From NCBI GenBank assembly GCA_036925085.1, contig JAUPFP010000006.1, forward strand, positions 729,001 to 793,000: 64,000 nucleotides of DNA, given 5' to 3'. Under the pieces are notes generated by a model. The model was not told the DNA's origin. It ran no database searches and worked only from the letters and a program-made list of their open reading frames with translations. This document shows positions 14,260 to 62,920 of this stretch, piece by piece. This DNA is from Brachycybe producta. Its lineage: Eukaryota; Arthropoda; Diplopoda; Playtdesmida; Andrognathidae. The stretch's first letter is position 1; each line of letters starts with the position of its first letter. The position numbers and the translations under genes are program-made.

Positions 14260-15107
14260 TGTAACATCCCCGTTTCCGTAGGGTTAGTAGAGAGATCTCT
14301 ACTAGCCATCTAGAAGTGTCGAATGGATGTTGATGATTAAGTCTTTCGGTCTATTGGCTCCTGTGTTGCTACTTAACCACCAGGGACACAAGGGTCGGTA
14401 CCTCAGGAGACCTGTGGTAGAGAATATTGTAGAGATGTCGTCTTACACTCGGCTGCTGGAGACTTCGTTGTCCGGTGGAAACATCGGCTACGTGGCGGCT
14501 ATAATCCTAAGTCCCACTCCCATAAAATGACTGAGTCCACACATTGAATTCGTATGATGAAAATGCTCTTTTATTCAATAAACAGAGAGTCCTGTAGATT
14601 GAGAGATATCGCATCGGTCTTAAGCATAAAGACGGTCTGTCCGATCTGCCTGATCTATCCGATCTGTCCTCTCAATCTACAACCTCTTGTATTTATACTC
14701 AAAATACAATACAAACATCTGATTATGATAACAAAGGCTCCAGGTGTGTCCAAGTCTCTTGGACACACTCGGACCTAGAAGTGAACTATCACTTGACAAG
14801 AAAACGAAAACATCTATAAGATGTATAAATTATAACAATACAGAAGGATGTACGATCATCCTCCTATTAACAATTTGTAAAGATTCTCACGTCCAAAAGT
14901 TCTGCATCGATGGTTCTTCTAGGATCTATCCTATTAACCATCGATGTAGTACTTTTGGGCTATTCTTCTCATCTTGGAGGGCAGGGAGTCATCGTCGTAA
15001 TGACCTCCCGGCCACCCCCAAGCATGAGGTGAGAACCTTTCATCGATACAACTTGATTACAGGGTGTCTACAAAAACGGACGAATTCTAAACGGTGAATT
15101 CGTTACA
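14260..15107 (-). repeat. 3' LTR of the Gypsy element (848 bp)
   Basis: It begins TGTAAC and ends GTTACA on the plus strand (TG..CA ends, 6-bp inverted tips). By eye it is identical to 24894-25741. In element sense a TATAAATA lies at 14697-14690 and an AATAAA at 14575-14570. That places the transcription start near 14665 and polyadenylation near 14550, so the R region is roughly 110 bp. The LTR is rich in hairpins (see findings). As the 3' LTR its AATAAA should end the element transcript, and it could also end host transcripts because the host gene runs in the same direction. Confidence 0.95.
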
Positions 15108-15113
15108 CCCCCC
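15108..15113 (-). promoter_or_regulatory. Polypurine tract (G6) next to the 3' LTR
   Basis: In element sense, AGTTGGGGGG directly abuts the TGTAAC start of the 3' LTR. A purine run here is where RNase H leaves the primer for plus-strand DNA synthesis. It is short and G-rich, so cleavage precision is inferred. Confidence 0.7.
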
Positions 15114-15554
15114 AACTAGTTTAAGAGTACGTCCCTGTACTCTCAAAAAGTTAACTATTAAAAATACCCGTTGGTATGAAAATCTATACGATAAAAATTA
15201 TAATCCCGTTGGATGATAAAATTTAAAAATCACAGCTCGTGATACTAATAGCATCTCGCTATTTTAAAAAATTCCCGCTTGGAATTAAAACAATTCTAAA
15301 AATTGACAAATAGGCGAAAGCCTATCAAATTACAAAAGGGACAATCCCCTAATATAAAAACTTCTATAAAAACGCAGGCAATTGCCTTAAAAACTACGAA
15401 AAATAAATAGACAACGGTCTATAAAAATAAATGCGAACGTGCATTAAGAATACAAAATACAAAAAGTATAAAACACAATACTTAAAATACTAAAACAAAC
15501 GAACGAACAAGTATACAGACGATACTTGTGAAGAATCAGTTCACTTTCTGTAAC
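15108..15554 (-). other. Element 3' noncoding region: serial hairpin array
   Basis: Between the pol stop and the 3' LTR lie 447 bases that are A-rich on the plus strand and broken up by about 14 short perfect inverted repeats. Their spans are 15124-15143, 15164-15177, 15203-15214, 15229-15243, 15247-15263, 15270-15286, 15291-15305, 15310-15325, 15337-15350, 15376-15387, 15407-15422, 15430-15445, 15464-15483 and 15507-15529. Arms are 4-8 bp and loops 3-8 nt. Arm sequences differ from one hairpin to the next, so this is not a tandem repeat. Most G and C bases of the region fall in arms or loops. In the element RNA the linkers are U-rich. The function is unknown. Confidence 0.75.
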
Positions 15555-18500
15555 CTAATATTCCGCTTCAGCCCATCCGTTGGCAGGACTCTCGGGACTT
15601 CTTCGGAGGGCTCCTTCCAAGATGATGGCAGCGTCCGATGACCCTCTGCACTGTCGGTAGCTCCTGCGACCTTCCGCATAGCTAGTGGCAGCGTCAAATA
15701 ATAGGTGGGGTCGATCATCATGAAAATGCGGACAGCGTACGGGACGTCCTGTCAGGCGAATGCTGGCCTGCTGACTCCACTGTAGAAAAGTGCGTGTCCA
15801 CTTCATGATTCCGTCTTCGACCTCCCGGATTCTGATGTCTTCTTCGTAATGAAAGACCATGATGTCTCGGTGCTCTACGGCGATGACGAGGATGGTGGGC
15901 CGGCTGCAGACAACCAGTCCGATGAGAAAGGTCTTCGGACCTTTCGGGATACGGTTTCTTGGCGGTGTCTCATCCCATTCGAAGAGCCCCAAGTAAAGCT
16001 GATGTCTCGGCGTCCTTTTTCGCTGCCAGTGTACACAGAGATTGTTCAGCGTGGTCTCATCTCCTCTGGTACTCCGGTGTGGATGCGCGATGTTCCTGGG
16101 GCCTGAAGTCTCCATGGAGTCCGTTGGAGTCTTTACTACAGACCCCAGGCGCTCCTTTACTGGTCTCTTCGGTATGGCCCCTGTCGCTTGACTTGGTTCT
16201 ATCTTGGGCTCGTCGGTCGTCTTCATTTTTGTTTCTGATCCAACTTTGATGGTCCCAGGAGACGTTATGGAAGCCCTAGGACTCCCAGGAGCTTCCTTAT
16301 CGCTCCTGACGGTAGTCTTTGGCTCCATCATCGTGATGTCATCTCGGTATAGCCCTGACTCACGAGGGCGGACATCTCTCAATACGACGGTATTCTTCGG
16401 CGCCTGATGAAAGAAGCTTTTTACTTCCGATCTCAATTGGGTTCGCAGGCCCCTGCTGGGCCGGTTTCGCTCGACGAGAGGCCTTGGCTGCCTCCAGCGC
16501 CGAACTCCGCGGACCAACAGGTCTTCTGTGGGGCCCGAGTTGCCAATTTCGATTGGAAGGGCGGTCCCCTTACAATCCATAATGCGGCCGTCGTATAATA
16601 CGATACGCTCCCCATCAAAGGTTTCGTAGACCTGATCCACCAATGCCAACCCTCGGAGGTGGTACTCGACCGCGATGTCGACCAATAACCTCAGCTGCGC
16701 ATGGTAGTTGTCTCTTGGATCCTCCATGACGGTAATTTCTTTATGTTCTGAAGTCGCGAGTTTAGCATATATCTTGGGAGGAGGAGGAACAGCGGTTTCA
16801 ACTCCTCTGGCCTCTTCTTCAGGCCTGGCCCCTGGGAGCTCCTCATCATCGGTGTCGATATACAGGACATCGTTGTCCTCGTCATGGGTATTTCGAATGG
16901 TGATGACGGGTCCCTGCGTCAGACTCTCGACGACTCTTTTTGGAGGGAGGTGGGCATCGCAGGACTCCGCGAGCCCTGCCTCTCGACGCTTCTTTGCCTC
17001 CCTGTGTCGCTTGCTCAGCTTATTTTTCTTGCGCTGATTAGGTTCGATGACAGGAGCGGCTGCAGGACATTCTACTGGAGCAGGTCTTTTTAGAGTATGG
17101 AGGCGGTCCTTCGTTTTGACTGCTTCCGGCTCTACCAACTCCTGATATGCCTTCTCTGCATCTTTCAGTGCTTGGCTTCTGGGCACATACCGCCCTTTAC
17201 TGTCCCAAATCTCATTTAGACTTCTGTGTGGGACGGGTGGTCTGTTCCTACGACCGTGGCGCTCCCAATCCGCAGGGGTCCACTCGCTGGTGTCGTTTGG
17301 ATCACCTTCTTTGCCCCAGTTCTTTGGTTCTGCGCCTCCGGGAGCAAACTCTCCGGGTCTGATGGCGTTAAAGAAGTTGGGCTGACCGGCCCCGACGACT
17401 CCTGGCAGAATCTTTTCCGACTGCCGCTTCTTTTGTTGCTTAGTCAGGCTTGGAACAATCGCGTGGTCCCATAATCCATCTTCGATCTCTTTTTCCAGCG
17501 CCACTGCTGCTGTATCGAAGATCAGCTTGGATCCGCCTTCTATCGGCACGATGGAGCTTGGTCTGATTTCGTTTTGCCGTTCAAAATATCGTCCTCTTTT
17601 GTGGGCACGACCCTGTAAGGTGGGCCCACGGACACCGTGACCCCAACCCTGCCTGGTAGTGGCCACTTCTTCGTAGAGATTCTCCAACGGCGACTGCATA
17701 GTCGTACTTCTTTTCGAAAAAGACAAAGGAAAAGTGTTTGGATCTCGGAGCCCGAAATTTACATGCTTTTCTTGGCTCCTTCTTACCTCTTTCGATCCAT
17801 CTTTAGATTTTTCCTTGTTCTCTTTGTTGAAGTTTTGCACAAACAAAATAAAACTCCCGATATTTTTCGCGATTAAAGAAAATTTACTCGATGTCTTCGT
17901 GAAACAATCCAAATAAAAACGATAACGCTTCGAAAAATGGCCGATAACGGTAAAGAAGTCTAGGATATGATAAAGATGCCAAAAAATAGTGCCGGTACAT
18001 GTGGATAGCACATGGGCACAACTGTCAGTTGTGAAGAAGATAAACAATAGGACCCGGATCCATAGTGGTGCGAGGCTAGTAGACATTTCACTTAATGTAT
18101 CCCTCCGCCCACGTGTTTCTTCTATGCTTGGTAGCGTCATTGACCGCTCCCTGTTTACTTCCTCATTTGGGACGTCATTTCCATCTGTGGCGTCACTAGC
18201 ATCGATATCATCGTCCATTTTTGTTGTTTCATCGATAACTTCCGCGTTTTTCACCTCCATTTGAAATTCCATCGGCGAATTTACATCTTTTTCGTCGATT
18301 TTCATCGTTTCTCCAGGAATTTCGCTGATTTCTTCAACAAATCCAATGGTTTCCATGGTAAAATTCGTCTTATTACCATATTCTCTGGTGAATTTCATCG
18401 CATCTTCGCCAGGTAAGTATGAGAATTGTTGCTGGTTATCGTCTGCTGCCATTTTTCTTCTAATTTCGACGTTACGGTCGGAATGCTTTCGGATTGCTTT

Positions 18501-21500
18501 CGTAATTATCTCAATTTCTTCTTCATCCTCAGAAGATTCGATCCAAGCATTTTGGCATCTGCAGTGTCCACAACATCTCTTCTTACGCGAAGGTAGGTTC
18601 TTTTTCTTGACAAACGCTGTCATTTCTTTTTCTTTTACAGGTTCCGATTCGGATTCTTCTGGCGATGAGTTACCCATGGACTCCAGGGTGTCTCCAGTCG
18701 TTGGAACATTGGGTCCGTCCTTTTGGTAAGTCTCATATAGTGGTCTCAGGTTTGCAACGTTTACAGAGTCCTCCACTAATCTTCCAGCTCGATTCTCGTA
18801 ACTCAATCGGTATACGGTGTCCGATACCTTCGACACAATCGTATATCCCTGTCTCCATTTCGTTAAGAACTTCTTGTTCTGTCCAGGCCTGATTCGCATG
18901 TCTCGTACAAGTACTTTCTGTCCGATTTGGTACTCGTAAGGCTTCTTATGCCTTTGGTCGTAGTACTTCTTTCGACGATCATGTGCTGCTTTCAGGTTCG
19001 CCCTGGCTGTTCTTAGTTCTTCTTCTTGGCGTTCCTCCGCCTGTTGTCGAACGTCCACGAGGTTTCCTGCCTCGTTATCCACGATAACTGGTCGTTCTGG
19101 AACTAAGGTGTCTACTTTAGTTCTGGGCTCCCTCCCAAACATGAGTCTGTACGGCGTAAACTTTGTGGATGAATGTACAGATGAGTTGTACGATTCCAAA
19201 ACTTCATCCAGTTTCGTTGCCCAATCAGTCTGGTTCTTCGCAGGAGTCAGATACTTTTTCATAGTCTGAATAATGCTTTTATTCGTCCTTTCGGCGAGAC
19301 CATTACTTTGCGGATGGTAGGCAGTTGTTGTTTCGTGCTCTATCTTGTTTATTTTCAAGAATTCTTGAGTGTTCTTTGCAACAAACGGCGTCCCTCGATC
19401 CGAAATGAGTTTCTCTGGTATCCCGAAGATTTTCTTTACGTCTTTTGCTAGGAAGTTCATTACGATTAGTGCGGTTGTGCTTTTCACTGCTTTAGCAACG
19501 CAATATCGAGTGGCGTAATCGACTGCCAACAAGATATGCTTGTTTCCTCCAACCGACGGTACTAATGGTCCAATGAAATCCATTCCCCAGCAATCACAAG
19601 GCTTTCCAATGGGCATTTCTTGAAGGAACCCTTCAGGTTTCTCCGTACCCAACTTGTGTAATTGACAAATCTCACATGAGCGCACATATTCGAATATGTC
19701 GTGCTTCATGTTATTCCAATAAAATCTTTGCCTGGCTCGATTCCAGGTCTTAGTTTGTCCTTCATGACCAGCATCGGGCTCGTCATGGCATAATCTCATT
19801 ACTTCTGGGATGAGATGTTTTGGCACCACATTCACGAGTGTGGGTACGGAACTTCCGTGAAACACACAAGCGAACAACTTGTTGTCGTAATCGCAAAACA
19901 ACTTATGAAGAGGTGACTCTGGTTGGTTACGCAACTCCTCACGAATCTTCAAAATCTCTGGGTCCAATTTTTGCTCCACCTTCCAATCCCATTGTAAGGT
20001 TACATTAAAGATCACACTGTCATCTAGGTCTTCCACTTCTGGGATGGCCTTCCAGTTAACAGGCACTCCGGCTGGATATCTCGAGAGGCAATCGGCTTCG
20101 ATGTGAAGTTTCCCCTCTTTGTAGATGATTTTGTAGTCGTACTCCTGCATTAGCAGCTGCCAGCGACCAAGTCTTCCTTCCAGACGTGCTGCAGTTTTCA
20201 TGTAGCATAATGCGTGGTGATCCGTCACAATTGTAAAGGGCTTCTGGAACAGGTACGGCCGGAACTTGGTGACTCCATAGATTACTGCTAGGCACTCTTT
20301 ATCCGTCGTACTGTAGTTCTTTTCCGCGTCCCTTAGAACTCTGGAGACACTTCCAATGATCTCCTTTCTTCGTTTATCCTCTGACTTCTGGTAAAGCATC
20401 GCTCCAATTCCGTATCCACAGGCATCAGTATGCATAAATATTGCAGCCTTCGGATCATATACGGCAACCAATGGAGATTTCGACAACATATTCTTTAGCG
20501 TGCGGAATGCATTCTCGCAGTCAACTGACCATTCGAACGGTATATCTTTACCCGTCAGGTCTGACATGGGCTTCGCTATGTTGGCAAATCCAGGTACATG
20601 CTTTCGATAATAACCCGCCAATCCAAGGAAACTTCTGATTGCGGTTACATTGTCAGGAACTGGGAAGTTCTTTATGGCGACAACCTTATCTGGATCTGGC
20701 CGAATTCCATCAGGCGAGATCAGGTGTCCCAAATACTTCACTTCTTGGAATCCAAAGAAGCATTTCACTGGATGCAACTTCAGGTTTGCTGTCCTCAGCA
20801 AGTCCAAGATAGTTCTCAATCTTTCCAAAAATTCTTCGAACGTTCTTCCAAACACTACGATGTCGTCAAGGTAGACAAGGCACGTTTCCCATTTGTGCCC
20901 GGCAAGTAGGATGTCCAATGCACGTTGCATAGTGGCAGGAGCGTTTCGGAGTCCGAAAGGCATTCTTACGAACTCGAACAATCCTCGATGAGATGTAAAT
21001 GCGGTCTTCTCGATGTCGCTTTCTTCCATCTCGAACTGCCAGTATCCACTCTTCATATCCAGCGTTGCGAAGTAGCATGCTCCTCTCATGGAGTCTAATG
21101 CGTCATCAATCCTCGGTAATGGATAAGTGTCTGCCTTTGTAATCGCGTTCAACTTCCGATAATCTACACAGAAACGGTAGGAGCCATCCTTCTTCTTTAC
21201 AAGGACGATGGGCGATGCATACGGCGATTTCGATGGCCTTACAACCCCAGATTTCTTCATCTCCTCTAGCGTCTCATCAATTACGATGCGTTCCCCAGGC
21301 CCGCATCTTCGTAACGTGTCTCGAACAGGTAAATTATCTCCAGTTTCGATCTTGTGTTTGGTCAGATTCGTAGCTCCCAGGTCCTTAGATGAAAAGGCGA
21401 AGATCGGTTGGAACTCCTTCAGTAGGATCGTCAACTCTTCTCTTTGATCATCTGTCAGTTCAGGACCAAGTTGAATTTCTTTTTCAAAATCAACGGGTGC

Positions 21501-23252
21501 TTCTCCGATGTCTCTAAAGTTTTCCTCTTCGGAAACTTTGCAGGCTTGCTCTTCTTCTAGTTCTTCTAGAAGTTCGAAGTGTCCAATAGTCTCGCGGTCT
21601 CCAATCCCCACGGACTCCAGTGTGGTATTCAGGAGTTGGACTTCCAGTTGTGATGTTCCATTCCCTTGTAGCACACTGCTGGCCACAACGATGCCTTTTC
21701 TATTAAAGAGACTATCGTTCGTTTCAATCATGAGTACTTCGTTTTCCTCAATGATCCGCCCTGCAGCTACTTTGAGGTTCAAAGCCTGGCCCGGATTTAA
21801 CGTAATCCTTCCTTGGGCTTTTACGCAGCTTTCCTCTCTAGCTTTTATGGCATAGGAGTTATCCAGATGGCTATTCTGAGCACATCCCTCCTCTTTTAAC
21901 TCTTTGAAGAAATTCCAGGGAAGGCTACTACGCGCACTTCCTTTCTTCAACAATTCTCGTGTTCCTTCGTAGAACATCTCATTAGCAAAGTAGATCTTGG
22001 AGGTCTTCATGGAAATGATGAGATCAAACGCAGCTCCCAGGTCTCTCCCCAGCAGTGCTTCTCGTTTTCCATCTATGATGAGCATCCTTGCCGTTACTTG
22101 CTTTCCGTTCAACTCGAACGTTGGCCACAACTGACCAAGTACCTTAATCGGTACCCCTCCTACTGCGCCTAATGCAGGTGCGTTCCGGATTGGTCCATAT
22201 CGAAGTCCGTACTCTTTGGCCATTGTGCCTGACAAGATAGTGAACCCAGTTCCGCTATCCGCCAAAAATCTAACTGGTGTGCCGTCAACCTGAATGGTAA
22301 TCTTGGCAACACTCTCATCGGGCGTAGTATCTCCTACCTCGATGAGTTCGCATGAGGTGAGTAGGCTGTCTACAGTGATTTCAACACTCTTTCGACAACA
22401 AGCCCTACTTCTCAACAAATCTCCAACTTCAACGGATTCAATAACTTCGCTGTTCGCAGGGATCCTGCTGGTATCATCTCCTCTACCGATAGCTGCGTTT
22501 ACAATAGCCTTCTTGGATTTCTTAGCATCAGTTTCGGCCTTGCCCCAGGCAATAACATTGGATGTTACATCTTGAGGGATTTCCTGAGCAACATTGCTTA
22601 TCCCCGGTATACACGCCGCAGAATTCTGTTGGGTCCTTCCCTCAATTCCGTCTGGCACCGCAGAATTCTGTTGGGTCTCTCCCTCAATTCTGTCTTGATT
22701 AACTCCAGTTTCCATGGCTTCCACAATTCTCTTTGCTTCCTCCAAGCTATTCGCGTAAACTACCATAGCTTTCGTAGGTGACCAGATGATGGGTTCCGGA
22801 AATATCTCCTCGATGATTTCTCCCCTTCGACCAGTATCCTTTCGCAGCTTCTTATTTTTTCGTGAATTCCGTTGTCGTTTTCCATTCGTAATGCCGACTA
22901 ACAACTCCGACGATTGCTCAGGGAGTCCTTGAGTGTCCAAATCACATGGTCTCTTCGGTGCTCCAGCCTTTGGTCTAGTTGTGGCGACATTCGAAATGCC
23001 GACTAACAACTCCGACGATTGCTCAGGGAGTCCTTGAGTGTCCAAATCGCATGGTCTCTTCGGTGCTCCAGCATTCCGTCTAGTTTTAGTGACATTGGTA
23101 GCTTCGCTCACGCCCCTATTCCCCCCCAACAAAGCTTTATCCACAATGTTTCGGGAATTGGCGATCGCTGTTTCGTTTCGATTTTGTCGTTTTCCAGAGG
23201 GTTTTCCGTTCTTAAAGGGCGGTAGGCCCCTCTTTACTGCCACCCCTTCTAG
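15555..23252 (-). CDS. pol: Gypsy Pol (protease, RT, RNase H, integrase, long C-terminal extension)
   Basis: The frame is open from the frameshift site to the stop at 15555. Numbering here starts at the GTG at 23243, which is not a real start: Pol is most likely made as a Gag-Pol fusion by -1 frameshifting. Residues 1-310 are unassigned and hold a tandem repeat. The protease has ADSGTG with Asp329. The reverse transcriptase carries YLDD at 791-794 and VKYLGH. RNase H has Asp940 and the ADCLSR tail. The integrase has an HHCC finger starting at His1153, then Asp1222, Asp1282 and Glu1318 (DD35E). A GPY/F-like module lies at 1455-1510 (KWRQGYTIV). The last ~1,050 residues have an acidic and Cys-rich segment (RCCGHCRCQ), a hydrophobic stretch near 1726-1760 and basic, Pro-rich parts. 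I recognise no family in them. Gypsy Pol proteins usually stop soon after the integrase. Confidence 0.95.
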   Translation of the reverse strand, partial: LEGVAVKRGLPPFKNGKPSGKRQNRNETAIANSRNIVDKALLGGNRGVSEATNVTKTRRNAGAPKRPCDLDTQGLPEQSSELLVGISNVATTRPKAGAPKRPCDLDTQGLPEQSSELLVGITNGKRQRNSRKNKKLRKDTGRRGEIIEEIFPEPIIWSPTKAMVVYANSLEEAKRIVEAMETGVNQDRIEGETQQNSAVPDGIEGRTQQNSAACIPGISNVAQEIPQDVTSNVIAWGKAETDAKKSKKAIVNAAIGRGDDTSRIPANSEVIESVEVGDLLRSRACCRKSVEITVDSLLTSCELIEVGDTTPDESVAKITIQVDGTPVRFLADSGTGFTILSGTMAKEYGLRYGPIRNAPALGAVGGVPIKVLGQLWPTFELNGKQVTARMLIIDGKREALLGRDLGAAFDLIISMKTSKIYFANEMFYEGTRELLKKGSARSSLPWNFFKELKEEGCAQNSHLDNSYAIKAREESCVKAQGRITLNPGQALNLKVAAGRIIEENEVLMIETNDSLFNRKGIVVASSVLQGNGTSQLEVQLLNTTLESVGIGDRETIGHFELLEELEEEQACKVSEEENFRDIGEAPVDFEKEIQLGPELTDDQREELTILLKEFQPIFAFSSKDLGATNLTKHKIETGDNLPVRDTLRRCGPGERIVIDETLEEMKKSGVVRPSKSPYASPIVLVKKKDGSYRFCVDYRKLNAITKADTYPLPRIDDALDSMRGACYFATLDMKSGYWQFEMEESDIEKTAFTSHRGLFEFVRMPFGLRNAPATMQRALDILLAGHKWETCLVYLDDIVVFGRTFEEFLERLRTILDLLRTANLKLHPVKCFFGFQEVKYLGHLISPDGIRPDPDKVVAIKNFPVPDNVTAIRSFLGLAGYYRKHVPGFANIAKPMSDLTGKDIPFEWSVDCENAFRTLKNMLSKSPLVAVYDPKAAIFMHTDACGYGIGAMLYQKSEDKRRKEIIGSVSRVLRDAEKNYSTTDKECLAVIYGVTKFRPYLFQKPFTIVTDHHALCYMKTAARLEGRLGRWQLLMQEYDYKIIYKEGKLHIEADCLSRYPAGVPVNWKAIPEVEDLDDSVIFNVTLQWDWKVEQKLDPEILKIREELRNQPESPLHKLFCDYDNKLFACVFHGSSVPTLVNVVPKHLIPEVMRLCHDEPDAGHEGQTKTWNRARQRFYWNNMKHDIFEYVRSCEICQLHKLGTEKPEGFLQEMPIGKPCDCWGMDFIGPLVPSVGGNKHILLAVDYATRYCVAKAVKSTTALIVMNFLAKDVKKIFGIPEKLISDRGTPFVAKNTQEFLKINKIEHETTTAYHPQSNGLAERTNKSIIQTMKKYLTPAKNQTDWATKLDEVLESYNSSVHSSTKFTPYRLMFGREPRTKVDTLVPERPVIVDNEAGNLVDVRQQAEERQEEELRTARANLKAAHDRRKKYYDQRHKKPYEYQIGQKVLVRDMRIRPGQNKKFLTKWRQGYTIVSKVSDTVYRLSYENRAGRLVEDSVNVANLRPLYETYQKDGPNVPTTGDTLESMGNSSPEESESEPVKEKEMTAFVKKKNLPSRKKRCCGHCRCQNAWIESSEDEEEIEIITKAIRKHSDRNVEIRRKMAADDNQQQFSYLPGEDAMKFTREYGNKTNFTMETIGFVEEISEIPGETMKIDEKDVNSPMEFQMEVKNAEVIDETTKMDDDIDASDATDGNDVPNEEVNRERSMTLPSIEETRGRRDTLSEMSTSLAPLWIRVLLFIFFTTDSCAHVLSTCTGTIFWHLYHILDFFTVIGHFSKRYRFYLDCFTKTSSKFSLIAKNIGSFILFVQNFNKENKEKSKDGSKEVRRSQEKHVNFGLRDPNTFPLSFSKRSTTMQSPLENLYEEVATTRQGWGHGVRGPTLQGRAHKRGRYFERQNEIRPSSIVPIEGGSKLIFDTAAVALEKEIEDGLWDHAIVPSLTKQQKKRQSEKILPGVVGAGQPNFFNAIRPGEFAPGGAEPKNWGKEGDPNDTSEWTPADWERHGRRNRPPVPHRSLNEIWDSKGRYVPRSQALKDAEKAYQELVEPEAVKTKDRLHTLKRPAPVECPAAAPVIEPNQRKKNKLSKRHREAKKRREAGLAESCDAHLPPKRVVESLTQGPVITIRNTHDEDNDVLYIDTDDEELPGARPEEEARGVETAVPPPPKIYAKLATSEHKEITVMEDPRDNYHAQLRLLVDIAVEYHLRGLALVDQVYETFDGERIVLYDGRIMDCKGTALPIEIGNSGPTEDLLVRGVRRWRQPRPLVERNRPSRGLRTQLRSEVKSFFHQAPKNTVVLRDVRPRESGLYRDDITMMEPKTTVRSDKEAPGSPRASITSPGTIKVGSETKMKTTDEPKIEPSQATGAIPKRPVKERLGSVVKTPTDSMETSGPRNIAHPHRSTRGDETTLNNLCVHWQRKRTPRHQLYLGLFEWDETPPRNRIPKGPKTFLIGLVVCSRPTILVIAVEHRDIMVFHYEEDIRIREVEDGIMKWTRTFLQWSQQASIRLTGRPVRCPHFHDDRPHLLFDAATSYAEGRRSYRQCRGSSDAAIILEGALRRSPESPANGWAEAEY
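22895..23095 (-). repeat. Tandem duplication in the Pol N-terminal region
   Basis: Two nearly identical units of about 105 bp encode AGAPKRPCDLDTQGLPEQSS plus ELLVGI(S/T)N. They differ at only a few bases, so the duplication is recent. A shorter 14-residue repeat (RIEGETQQNSA / GIEGRTQQNSA) is encoded at about 22620-22700. Both fall in the linker between Gag and protease, where length changes are probably tolerated. Confidence 0.85.
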
Positions 23253-23258
23253 TTTAAA
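23196..23258 (-). promoter_or_regulatory. -1 ribosomal frameshift signal: UUUAAAC plus predicted pseudoknot
   Basis: In the Gag frame the message reads GAU UUA AAC UAG. T TTA AAC (23258-23252) is the canonical X XXY YYZ slippery heptamer and the Gag stop follows at once. Slipping back one base leads into the open pol frame exactly. Downstream, AAGGGGUGG (23248-23240) can pair with CCGCCCUUU (23222-23214) in a 9-bp stem that includes two G-U pairs. The loop bases AGAGGG (23233-23228) can pair with CCCUCU (23201-23196), giving an H-type pseudoknot. The first bases of the stem lie close to the heptamer, so the working stem is probably GGGUGG/CCGCCC at a 6-nt spacing. Confidence 0.85.
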
Positions 23259-24943
23259 TCAGCCGGGTTTTCCTCTCGCAGGAACTTTTTCTGCCCGTTC
23301 TCGCTGACGACAAAATACTGCTGGCCATTTCTTCCAGTGGCCATTCCATGTTGAACAAGTCCAACGGTTCCATCCGTGACTACTTTCTTTGGGCAGTTTC
23401 TTGAAAAGTGACCCTTCTCGTGACAGTGGTAACACTCTACTGTGCTGAGATCTTTCAGGGTTTTACTTCCATCTTGCGTTTGCTGACCATTGTAGTTCTT
23501 CTTCTGCGGATATCTTTGGTTCCATTTACGACCTTGTTGCTGATTCGAGTTCTGGTTGGTCTTCTGTTGCGCTTGGTTATTTGAATTTGATGGAGTCGAG
23601 TTGTTCGTTGGGTCCGCTTGATCTTGAGTAACAACCGCGTAAGAACGTCCTCCGTCCATTACTGCTTGCGTCTGTTTGGCATTTTGGCGTTGGTTATTCT
23701 TCTGTGGACCCTTGGAGACCTGGGTCGTCGATTGTTGACCCATCGTTCCTTCCGGTATCCATAACCCATCAGCCATCAAAACTTCCTCGGTATCCTTGAT
23801 ATATGTCGTGTACAGCTTCAGATTGCTATTCGGCGCATTCTGTGTAGCATTACGTATAATCGGATGAAGTTTCTGCCGAAATTCCACAATTCGGTATTTG
23901 TCGGTTACCCCCGGTAACACTTTTCTACTCAAGTCAAGGTAGCGACCCAAAAACTGATTGGTGTCCTCTCCTTTCCTTTGGAGCATGGTATCCAACCTCA
24001 GCTTCAGTTGCACTAACTCGTCTCGACGTCCAAATCTTTCAATTAACTCGCTTCGTATGAAGTCCCACGTGGTCTTTCCTCTATTCTCTTTGTAGAAATT
24101 GGATAACCAACGTACTACGTCCCCTTCTACCGCCTTACGTAGGTAGTAGGTCTTGTGGACGTTGCTCCAGTCCTCCAGATCTGCGATACTCTCGTAGTCC
24201 TCCAGAAAGGTGTATACAGACGTCAATCCTTTGAAGGTCTCCAGATTCCGGAGTGGGTGAAGACTCTTGTACTTCCCATCCAACTCCTCACAGGTCCGAT
24301 GACGATTGCAAATTGGATTTCTTTCCAGCTCTTCTATGCTGGGATCCTCACTTGTTAGGCTTTCATCCTCTAGCTGGTCCGGGTTCTCTCTCCGTAGAAT
24401 AGGAGTCTCAGGTAGGCGACCTCTCTGGGTCCCTCCACTCTTCTTCAGCATGAGCGGCGTCTGGAATACATTAACCTGTCTTAGGTTTTCAGCGTGGGCC
24501 GACGAGGGCTCCCCTTCAGTGTCCAATCCAGGAATCACTGTATGACGCTGAGATTCAGCGTGGGCCGACGAGGGCTCCACTCCGGTATCCATTTCTCGGA
24601 CTACCGTATGACGCTGAACTGTACTTACACCACGCCCGCTCCGGAGTAACATCGATCCTGATGGTTGCTGGGCTTCGAACCAGGCCATCAGTCTCTCCCG
24701 TCTTTCAGCACTTAGATTTTGAAGGATACCTTCAAGTGGATCTTCTCCATCCATTTGGTTTGTATCGTCCTTCTCCCGTGTCTTCGACTTCGATTTCGGT
24801 CTGCCTTTCTTTCCTTTACCACCTGGTGTAACTCCGACATCATTGGTATTCTCTACTGGATCTGTAGTGAGGTACCCCGCACCTCCACCATTTTGTAACA
24901 TCCCCGTTTCCGTAGGGTTAGTAGAGAGATCTCTACTAGCCAT
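23249..24943 (-). CDS. gag: Gypsy Gag (capsid and CCHC nucleocapsid)
   Basis: This 564-residue Gag forms the particle shell and binds the element RNA. Residues 1-220 are polar and low-complexity, with a ~24-residue repeat containing QRHTV and EPSSAHAE. Residues about 225-390 form a helical capsid-like region (ETFKGLTSVYTFLEDYE; WDFIRSELIERFGRRDELVQ). Residues 400-495 are Gln/Asn-rich. A zinc knuckle follows with Cys504, Cys507, His512 and Cys517 (CX2CX4HX4C). The first ATG (24943-24941) lies inside the LTR, 50 bases from its end. A second ATG (Met15, 24901-24899) also lies in the LTR. Either way the PBS is translated. The stop TAG directly follows a slippery heptamer. Confidence 0.92.
   Translation of the reverse strand: MASRDLSTNPTETGMLQNGGGAGYLTTDPVENTNDVGVTPGGKGKKGRPKSKSKTREKDDTNQMDGEDPLEGILQNLSAERRERLMAWFEAQQPSGSMLLRSGRGVSTVQRHTVVREMDTGVEPSSAHAESQRHTVIPGLDTEGEPSSAHAENLRQVNVFQTPLMLKKSGGTQRGRLPETPILRRENPDQLEDESLTSEDPSIEELERNPICNRHRTCEELDGKYKSLHPLRNLETFKGLTSVYTFLEDYESIADLEDWSNVHKTYYLRKAVEGDVVRWLSNFYKENRGKTTWDFIRSELIERFGRRDELVQLKLRLDTMLQRKGEDTNQFLGRYLDLSRKVLPGVTDKYRIVEFRQKLHPIIRNATQNAPNSNLKLYTTYIKDTEEVLMADGLWIPEGTMGQQSTTQVSKGPQKNNQRQNAKQTQAVMDGGRSYAVVTQDQADPTNNSTPSNSNNQAQQKTNQNSNQQQGRKWNQRYPQKKNYNGQQTQDGSKTLKDLSTVECYHCHEKGHFSRNCPKKVVTDGTVGLVQHGMATGRNGQQYFVVSENGQKKFLREENPADLN
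24875..24890 (-). promoter_or_regulatory. Primer binding site (TGG..), inside the gag coding region
   Basis: Three bases after the 5' LTR end, the element-sense strand reads TGGTGGAGGTGCGGGG. It starts with the TGG that pairs with a tRNA CCA tail, as expected for minus-strand priming. I cannot name the tRNA from memory. The segment is also codons for the Gly-rich stretch NGGGAG of Gag. Confidence 0.65.
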
Positions 24944-25741
24944 CTAGAAGTGTCGAATGGATGTTGATGATTAAGTCTTTCGGTCTATTGGCTCCTGTGT
25001 TGCTACTTAACCACCAGGGACACAAGGGTCGGTACCTCAGGAGACCTGTGGTAGAGAATATTGTAGAGATGTCGTCTTACACTCGGCTGCTGGAGACTTC
25101 GTTGTCCGGTGGAAACATCGGCTACGTGGCGGCTATAATCCTAAGTCCCACTCCCATAAAATGACTGAGTCCACACATTGAATTCGTATGATGAAAATGC
25201 TCTTTTATTCAATAAACAGAGAGTCCTGTAGATTGAGAGATATCGCATCGGTCTTAAGCATAAAGACGGTCTGTCCGATCTGCCTGATCTATCCGATCTG
25301 TCCTCTCAATCTACAACCTCTTGTATTTATACTCAAAATACAATACAAACATCTGATTATGATAACAAAGGCTCCAGGTGTGTCCAAGTCTCTTGGACAC
25401 ACTCGGACCTAGAAGTGAACTATCACTTGACAAGAAAACGAAAACATCTATAAGATGTATAAATTATAACAATACAGAAGGATGTACGATCATCCTCCTA
25501 TTAACAATTTGTAAAGATTCTCACGTCCAAAAGTTCTGCATCGATGGTTCTTCTAGGATCTATCCTATTAACCATCGATGTAGTACTTTTGGGCTATTCT
25601 TCTCATCTTGGAGGGCAGGGAGTCATCGTCGTAATGACCTCCCGGCCACCCCCAAGCATGAGGTGAGAACCTTTCATCGATACAACTTGATTACAGGGTG
25701 TCTACAAAAACGGACGAATTCTAAACGGTGAATTCGTTACA
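24894..25741 (-). repeat. 5' LTR of the Gypsy element (848 bp), promoter and gag start
   Basis: By eye it is identical to the 3' LTR. In element sense it runs from 25741 to 24894. The promoter TATAAATA is at 25331-25324 and AATAAA at 25209-25204. With a start about 30 bases after the TATA box, the leader before the first gag ATG is about 350 nt, all inside R-U5. The last 50 bases encode the Gag N-terminus (MASRDLSTNP onwards). Confidence 0.95.
25324..25331 (-). promoter_or_regulatory. TATA box of the element promoter
   Basis: TATAAATA occurs in element sense about 410 bases into the LTR. It lies about 115 bases upstream of the AATAAA signal at 25209-25204. This order fits a U3-R-U5 layout with a short R. 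Confidence 0.7.
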
Positions 25742-62379: not shown

Positions 62380-62920
62380 TTCATTTTAAAGTGTAAACAT
62401 GCCTTTTGGAGTTATTATATTTTTCAGATTCACAATGAAGAGAAACTTGAATGTGTTTTTTTTTAGAAACTAGAAGGGTAACTCAATCACTTAAAGAGTA
62501 TTTTCATGTTTGATATATTTTTTTTTTTCAAAATAAACTTTTTATATCAAGTTTGAAAATGACCCAATAAGTTTTAAGTTTATTTTCAAAGATATCAACA
62601 TGAAAATACCTTTTAAAAGTGAATGAATGAGCTACCCTTCTACTTTTCTAAAAAAAAAAAACTTTCTAGACAGGCAATTAGAAAACGGGATAAACATAAG
62701 TTGGCTCCGCCCTTTTTATTTTTTTTTTCAAAATAAACTTTTTATATCAAGTTTGAAAATGACCCAATAAGTTTTAAGTTTATTTTCAAAGATATCAACA
62801 TGAAAATACCTTTTAAAAGTGAATGAATGAGCTACCCTTCTACTTTTCTAAAAAAAAAAAACTTTCTAGACAGGCAATTAGAAAACGGGATAAACAGAAG
62901 TTGGCTCCGCCCTTTTTATG
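62380..62920. repeat. Family A copy with a 200-bp tandem duplication
   Basis: The family A copy begins near 62405. A 200-bp segment with TCAAAATAAACTTTTTATAT, GAAAATACCTTTTAAAAGTG, CTACCCTTCTACTTTTCTAA and the family D left end (GACAGGCAATTAGAAAACGG) occurs at about 62521-62720 and again from about 62721. The two units are almost identical, so the duplication is recent. Confidence 0.85.

Follow-up and report, generated by a model that had tools for sequence, protein, structure and literature searches.

The minus strand of the window (the whole 64-kb stretch of DNA that was analysed) carries a young, recently active LTR element of the Gypsy type (Metaviridae-like), the features of which are collected in Table 1. 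The LTRs end in TGTAAC..GTTACA (TG..CA), and CTAA is present at both flanks of the element as the target-site duplication. As judged from Pfam matches in the searched pieces, the pol frame encodes protease, reverse transcriptase (RT), RNase H and the zinc and core domains of integrase, in this order; the rve core, truncated in the piece searched, scored 32.5 bits against a cut-off of 32.6, and the zf-CCHC match in gag lies exactly at its cut-off (20.8). The domain order and the CCHC knuckle of gag, together with the LTR ends, the target-site duplication, the polypurine tract (PPT) and the putative primer-binding site (PBS), place the element in the Ty3/Gypsy group. A viral glycoprotein model also matched the integrase piece below threshold, which was taken as chance. 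Among the 120 RT matches listed, most of them nameless, the best named relatives are spider and tick proteins with 49-54% identity; further down, a beetle and a sea cucumber are named. Beyond the integrase, pol stays open for about 1000 codons (15558-18500, minus strand) without a Pfam match, and for its last 481 codons no homologue was found at E <= 0.001 among 7994 candidates scored. The pol frame also holds a 105-nt tandem repeat of the RNAGAPKRPCDLDTQGLPEQSSELL type (22883-23092) with copies 92% identical; elsewhere in the window there are a perfect 200-bp tandem duplication (62519-62918) and a long low-complexity repeat tract from 44209 onward.

The putative PBS, TGGTGGAGGTGCGGGG, is situated 3 nt beyond the LTR, and a pattern search for its primer tRNA gave no match. 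The gag frame passes through this site and is already open from within the LTR (24894-24943, minus strand), hence there is no noncoding leader behind the putative PBS, and gag may start inside U5. At the other end of the element, the junction between the putative PPT and the LTR, GTTACACCCCCCAA, occurs 123 times genome-wide (295 Mb) against 3 occurrences of a control pattern. The U3/R border would lie near the last hairpin in Table 1, as placed from the sense TATAAATA found there and from AATAAA at 14570-14575. The interval between the end of pol and the 3' LTR, which begins directly after the LTR and ends at the ORF stop (15555), is the subject of the present analysis.

Table 1. Features of the element and hairpins of its 3' noncoding part. 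Hairpin sequences are given as arm-loop-arm; L075, L078, L086 and L092 are loci of relatives.
Feature	Position	Strand	Description
3' LTR	14260..15107	-	848 bp, 0 mismatches vs 5' LTR
Final hairpin of chain	14687..14709	-	8 bp; contains sense TATAAATA (14690-14697)
U3 hairpin	14744..14768	-	11 bp
U3 hairpin	14779..14794	-	6 bp; different hairpin instead in L078 and L075
U3 hairpin	14810..14824	-	6 bp; identical in the 12 rows with letters
U3 hairpin	14845..14862	-	6 bp; G-C to C-G in 4 rows
Long interrupted U3 stem	14894..14959	-	21 + 5 pairs; sense RNA -33.2 kcal/mol
U3 hairpin	14988..15004	-	5-6 bp; one pair C-G to U-A
U3 hairpin at LTR edge	15080..15103	-	8 bp; U-A to C-G and C-G to U-A in L086 and L092
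3' noncoding interval, ORF stop to 3' LTR	15108..15554	-	14 hairpins (H1-H14), sense linkers U-rich
Putative polypurine tract adjoining 3' LTR	15108..15119	-	sense CTAGTTGGGGGG
H1	15124..15143	-	sense AGAGTAC-AGGGAC-GTACTCT
H2	15164..15177	-	sense ATACC-AACG-GGTAT
H3	15203..15214	-	ATCC-AACG-GGAT; loop variable among relatives
H4	15229..15243	-	ATCAC-GAGCT-GTGAT
H5	15247..15263	-	AATAGC-GAGAT-GCTATT; loop of 5, 4 or 3 nt among relatives
H6	15270..15286	-	AATTCC-AAGCG-GGAATT
H7	15291..15305	-	CAATT-TTTAG-AATTG; weak, RNA -1.1 kcal/mol
H8	15310..15325	-	ATAGGC-TTTC-GCCTAT
H9	15337..15350	-	AGGG..CCCT, 4 bp; stem kept in most relatives
H10	15376..15387	-	AGGC-AATT-GCCT; A-U replaces G-C in L086 and L092
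H11	15407..15422	-	ATAGAC-CGTT-GTCTAT; this type present a second time in L086 and L092
H12	15430..15445	-	AATGC-ACGTTC-GCATT
H13	15464..15483	-	AAGTAT-TGTGTTTT-ATACTT
H14	15507..15529	-	ACAAGTAT-CGTCTGT-ATACTTGT
Long pol frame	15555..23258	-	2567 aa stop to stop
Gag frame	23249..24943	-	564 aa stop to stop, one CCHC knuckle
5' LTR	24894..25741	-	848 bp

The hairpin chain and its extension into U3

A looser hairpin rule (arms of 5 bp, or of 4 bp with at least two G/C; loops of 3-8 nt) finds 14 hairpins between the ORF stop and the 3' LTR with a mean spacing of 29.7 nt (sd 8.6), in good agreement with the sequence-only reading, which had described about 14 hairpins every 28 bases or so; the four it had given as examples (H6, H8, H11 and H14) lie at exactly the places and with exactly the arms that it named. 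With this spread of the spacing, a strict register of 28-30 nt is not supported. Hairpins with perfect arms of 5 bp or more and loops of 3-10 nt were counted 11 times, against 2.96 +- 1.39 in dinucleotide shuffles, none of which (0/1000) reached 11, so that the shuffle test named in that reading does not refute the array; with arms of at least 6 bp there are 7 hairpins against 0.81 (0/1000), and with at least 7 bp 2 against 0.23 (22/1000 shuffles reach 2). In a scan of the 64 kb with 425 overlapping windows of 447 nt and 20 shuffles per window, this interval has the largest hairpin excess. The second-largest belongs to a stretch in the coding frame (16300-16746, minus strand) with 9 hairpins of GC-richer stems. 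The sequence-only reading had also proposed folding energy as a test, and here the outcome is split by strand: the plus strand of the interval folds far better than its shuffles (z = -5.3; 0/200 as low), whereas in the element sense the z is only -2.7 (1/200 as low). The hairpins are thus real, non-random and mostly different from one another, as that reading had supposed for this Gypsy-type 3' noncoding region.

Its description of their composition needs some correction. G and C are indeed concentrated in the hairpins (G+C 0.40 vs 0.19 in the linkers), but the linkers hold some of them too and the bases do not sit almost only in arms and loops. The linkers are 58% U in sense, with a tract of four or more U in 10 of 13. 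The arm sequences do not all differ, as the arms AAGTAT/ATACTT are common to H13 and H14 and the plus-strand core CCCGTTGG is common to H2 and H3. Nor does the chain end where it had been thought to end, namely at the border of the 3' LTR: it continues through U3 as far as 14687, giving about 20 hairpins over about 870 nt in total. U3 (14681-15107) has 8 hairpins against 2.8 in shuffles and a z of paired bases of 5.1; the corresponding z is 6.5 in the gap between ORF and LTR, 0.6 for R-U5 and 0.4 for the segment of the ORF that borders the stop. The coding part contains some hairpins as well, since 6 of 22 ORF segments reach a z of at least 2, the highest being 3.9 (18979-19406); the last segment (24543-24970, z 2.8) overlaps the 5' LTR. 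The array thus takes up about the whole unique 3' noncoding RNA, from the ORF stop to R.

The molecule that folds is presumably the sense RNA, because sense RNA, compared with DNA of that strand, gives the more stable hairpin in 19 of 22 cases and because the array nearly coincides with the unique 3' part of the RNA. Wobble variants favour neither strand: those pairing only in sense number 21 against 16 only in antisense in the 3'UTR and 7 against 6 in U3, and for shared variants the numbers are 8 against 12 and 4 against 4, respectively. With three relatives searched, no Rfam family was found at the gathering score. Four weak Rfam hits in the window (E 0.02-0.68) lie far below the cut-offs and were taken as chance; two of these come from microRNA models and fall on the long U3 stem.

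Relatives, compensation and rates of change

Relatives in the same genome range from near-identical copies down to about 70% identity over the array, with a short-array type at about 62%; for the latter, 33 of 40 scored matches are full-length copies at 95% identity or above. The copy search scored 40 of 158 candidates. From the 123 PPT-LTR junctions 100 were listed and 30 were made into loci, the junction being present in 68 rows from 100 loci; some genomic places were counted twice under two locus ids (e.g. L019 and L071), and L041-L070 were left out of the analysis. Alignment A1 (3'UTR, 21 rows) consists of the 18 of 74 rows below 96.5% identity plus L106, L102 and L103, and alignment A2 (U3) of 13 hand-picked rows. 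The analysis of close copies used 63 rows (38 distinct), the other 11 of the 74 having been set aside as divergent. L087 was omitted from the wobble and tree analyses of the 3'UTR because its short array aligns badly. No relatives were found among viral contigs.

The hairpin excess is not peculiar to the copy in the window. It was found in the 3'UTR of all nine main-type sequences tested (0 or 1 of 500 shuffles reach the count) and in the U3 of all eight sequences tested (1 to 3 of 500), and is weaker in the thin arrays of the older copies L105 and L106, where the count is reached by 26 and 11 of 500 shuffles. In A1, 91.0% of the cells pair, against 34.9-47.6% with the partners slid by 1-3 columns, and in A2 95.4% against 32.6-43.5%, a control that favours the true register, since the structure came from the window's copy. 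Changes on both sides were seen in 17 pairs of A1 against 10.6 shuffled (0/500) and in 12 pairs of A2 against 6.4 (0/500). Further pair types are in no excess over the shuffles, 353 of 500 (A1) and 458 of 500 (A2) of which reach the observed number. RNAalifold on A1 predicted 49 pairs that include most of the hairpins tested; a long-range pairing of columns 173-181 with 542-552 was left unused.

Parsimony mapping on trees made from the unpaired columns, with 200 shuffled-partner controls, gives the following numbers of double changes from one Watson-Crick pair to another: 13 in 8 pairs of the 3'UTR (20 rows), against 1.36 shuffled (0/200), and 14 in 11 pairs of U3, against 0.80 (0/200); the controls gave 5 at most. 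The event numbers are inflated and the independent origins fewer, because the subfamilies recombine. The expectation that arms would change with compensation in related copies is therefore borne out, although pair-breaking changes also occur, with 58 such events in the 3'UTR and 23 in U3 on the same trees. Some of these will reflect single copies that decayed once inserted, or hairpins that were misaligned. In the 3'UTR comparison from which the rates below were taken, 93 double changes are Watson-Crick in both sequences, against 437 single-side differences that are not Watson-Crick in both.

The clearest compensation is seen in H1, where 3 of 7 pairs are exchanged (A-U to G-C, G-C to A-U and U-A to C-G), and in the long U3 stem, where 7 of the 21 outer pairs changed on both sides with 96.4% of cells paired. 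The loop of H1, AGGGAC, is identical in 21/21 rows of A1, as are all five pairs of H2, in which a single loop base differs in L081; these two are the most conserved hairpins and the nearest to the PPT. A contact of the H1 loop (AGGGAC) with an arm of H9 (GUCCCU) was dropped by eye on the alignment, because the H9 side is missing in L081, L075, L092, L086 and L105. In U3, the stretch TCACCTCATGCTTGGGGGTGG (sense; 14990-15110, CACCTCATGCTTGGGGGTG) is identical in 13/13 rows of A2, above its surroundings.

For the rates of change, one sequence supplied the structure and two others were compared with each other, using six chosen rows per region; no p value is attached to the comparison because the triples overlap. 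The difference rates in the 3'UTR are 0.126 for arms, 0.169 for loops and 0.264 for linkers (0.151, 0.191 and 0.228 with arms of at least 6 bp), and in U3 0.180, 0.270 and 0.234. Among close copies the arms are less variable than the loops (18/138 vs 17/66 columns, p 0.03) and do not differ significantly from the linkers (32/167 columns, p 0.16), and for variants present in at least two copies neither comparison shows a difference (p 0.70 and 0.46). Folding excess and compensatory changes, by which a conserved structured RNA is recognised, were thus both found, and the best reading is that the fold is under selection.

Entire hairpins also come and go between subfamilies, and the earlier view that the array is not a copied unit is not supported, as hairpin types recur within and between arrays. 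The AGAC..GTCT type occurs twice each in L086 and L092, and ATGC or TGCA types occur two or three times in these loci. Between H2 and H3, L086 and L092 have a different hairpin in the corresponding position, as do L078 and L075 at 14779-14794, and L081 has the window's H1 within an array like that of L075, which points to recombination of subfamilies. Eleven of the 40 scored copies (of 158 candidates) keep H1-H13, lack H14 and have another ORF end, so that most of the array is passed on independently of the ORF end. The ORF ends differ among subfamilies that share one 3' array.

A second Gypsy family of this genome was reached through an RT match (C4:8088948), of which one copy and a partial region were examined with a rule like the looser one above. 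It has 303 open codons, a presumed stop at the ORF end and about 254 nt beyond. Its 3' part is U-rich (117 T of 260 nt joined) with one 4-bp hairpin, and its predicted fold is -44.4 kcal/mol, a value given without shuffle comparison. The comparison shows no more than that the 3' noncoding region of a Gypsy element can be U-rich without forming a hairpin chain.

Possible roles of the array

The array, larger than first described and supported by covariation, is best read as structured RNA in the 3' noncoding part of a retroelement. Among the proposed roles, protein binding for localisation and packaging would rank first, with RNA export as the main rival. The array would then be a multivalent landing platform for Gag and/or a host RNA-binding protein, to which we give a probability of roughly 40%. 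Between the ORF stop and roughly where R begins, the genomic RNA would fold into some 20 small local hairpins including the one long U3 stem, with U-rich single strands joining the hairpins of the ORF-to-LTR part. Short stems and U tracts would bind Gag, with its one zinc knuckle, and/or the host protein, and the bound array would mark the genomic RNA for assembly sites and packaging, thereby replacing work that is done at the 5' end by elements with a noncoding leader behind the PBS. As most arms drift, the partner would read either stem geometry together with accessible U tracts, in which case most arm sequences would be free to change, or a few fixed sites; the H1 loop and the H2 stem, which are kept letter for letter beside the PPT, may be such a specific site.

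This binding role is favoured by the excess in both 3'UTR and U3, with none in R-U5 or in the ORF segment at the stop, by the compensation, by the slower change of arms, by the stability of most hairpins as sense RNA, by the U4+ tracts of the linkers and by the course of gag through the putative PBS; Ty3 and alfalfa mosaic virus, described below, offer precedents. It is weakened by the pair-breaking events, the preponderance of single-side differences over kept double changes, the inflation of event numbers by recombination, the thin arrays of L105 and L106 and the weak contrasts among close copies, as well as by the low z in sense, the strand-neutral wobble pairs and the further pair types that stay at shuffle level. 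A more general statement, possible though rather doubtful, would be that selection keeps pairing and single-stranded U tracts and mostly not letters, the roughly 20 modules between the ORF stop and R acting as a multivalent scaffold for Gag or a host protein in place of a noncoding 5' leader, with modules gained, lost, copied and replaced between subfamilies. If this were true, many weak, exchangeable structures would do a job usually ascribed to one signal.

A role in RNA export, stability or translation appears unlikely but finds a good deal in common between the array and the CTE and RTE of mammalian retroviruses and retroelements; host export factors, or proteins of the poly(A) region, would here be drawn in by the hairpins and U tracts. 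U-rich single strands suit host U-binding proteins, and the array occupies the same place as the CTE and RTE, behind the last ORF and before and within the 3' LTR; the RTE, as described in PMC1363727, is likewise a structured RNA, of 226 nt. Against export stand the many independent small hairpins, where CTE and RTE are compact, and perhaps the lack of any Rfam family at the gathering score. The nearness of the PPT, with H1 and H2 as both the closest and the most conserved hairpins, would rather suit a role in reverse transcription, where hairpins of the single-stranded minus-strand cDNA, or of the RNA beside the PPT, would make RT pause, shield the PPT region or direct strand transfer, and the better folding z of the plus strand (which corresponds to the minus cDNA) points the same way. 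We nevertheless consider such a role improbable, since about 870 nt, reaching far into U3 and up to the ORF, exceed what aid to the PPT would need, and since a DNA hairpin taken singly has little stability, mostly -2 to -6 kcal/mol.

The array might also have no function at all. Template switching, in the course of either reverse transcription or DNA repair, would then have created its inverted repeats and 'repaired' them. The polymerase that copies retroelements switches templates, linked double changes are the expected product of such switching, entire hairpins are gained, lost and replaced between subfamilies, and the rate difference within close copies is weak. This explanation is nonetheless quite improbable in view of the arms, which change more slowly than linkers and loops among divergent relatives, of the bounds of the excess, which covers 3'UTR and U3 and is absent in R-U5, and of the other Gypsy family, whose partial 3'UTR is U-rich without a chain. 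The spacing near 30 bp, the AT-rich linkers and the location of the promoter in U3, with the sense TATAAATA in the final hairpin, might finally recall sites in double-stranded DNA, a promoter or insulator array with a dimeric protein on each inverted repeat. Dimer sites would fix arms and spacing, whereas the arms here differ among hairpins and drift with complementarity kept, and the loop of H5 varies in length, which makes this the least probable of the roles considered and a very improbable one. The family itself, with its long array, its covarying relatives and no fewer than 123 PPT-LTR junctions in a single genome, has an RNA structure already backed by evolution, in which the hairpins can be tested one by one.

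Comparison with known systems

Searches of the openly licensed PMC literature brought up no description of such an array in the 3' noncoding part of LTR retrotransposons, which is weak evidence of absence. The insulator of Drosophila gypsy is an array of Su(Hw) sites, i.e. repeats of one protein site in AT-rich DNA of the 5' region, whereas the present array is in the 3' region and its arms change with complementarity kept. The natural position of the CTE of Mason-Pfizer virus/SRV and of the RTE of mouse IAP is between the last ORF and the 3' LTR, a place shared by the array, which extends through U3 as well. According to PMC1363727, both are cis-acting RNA structures in retroelements, compact and of 173 and 226 nt, respectively; here about 870 nt are divided among many independent hairpins, and Rfam gave no match at the gathering score.

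Among known systems close to the array is Ty3, also of Ty3/Gypsy type, in which, as stated in passages of PMC4974528 and PMC11381356, the 3' noncoding RNA acts in localisation, packaging and reverse transcription, as it may do here. According to the same passages, Ty3 needs its UTRs and POL for RNA localisation and packaging, its primer-binding site is split between the RNA ends, and its cis-acting packaging sequences lack a precise definition (the latter in PMC11381356). The Ty3 3'UTR is 214 nt long and no hairpin chain is mentioned for it in those passages, in contrast to the chain of about 870 nt found here. In its architecture the array resembles the 3'UTR of alfalfa mosaic virus and the ilarviruses, a linear array of different small stem-loops with single-stranded spacers, which in alfalfa mosaic virus binds coat protein and aids translation (PMC9414508, in part). 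That array belongs to a plant RNA virus, is 145 nt long and has its stem-loops flanked by AUGC (PMC9414508, same part), whereas no AUGC stands between the hairpins of 15108-15554, the two sense copies in this interval both lying within hairpins. For this reason the array of the present element is not filed under the alfalfa mosaic virus type, though it may work alike.
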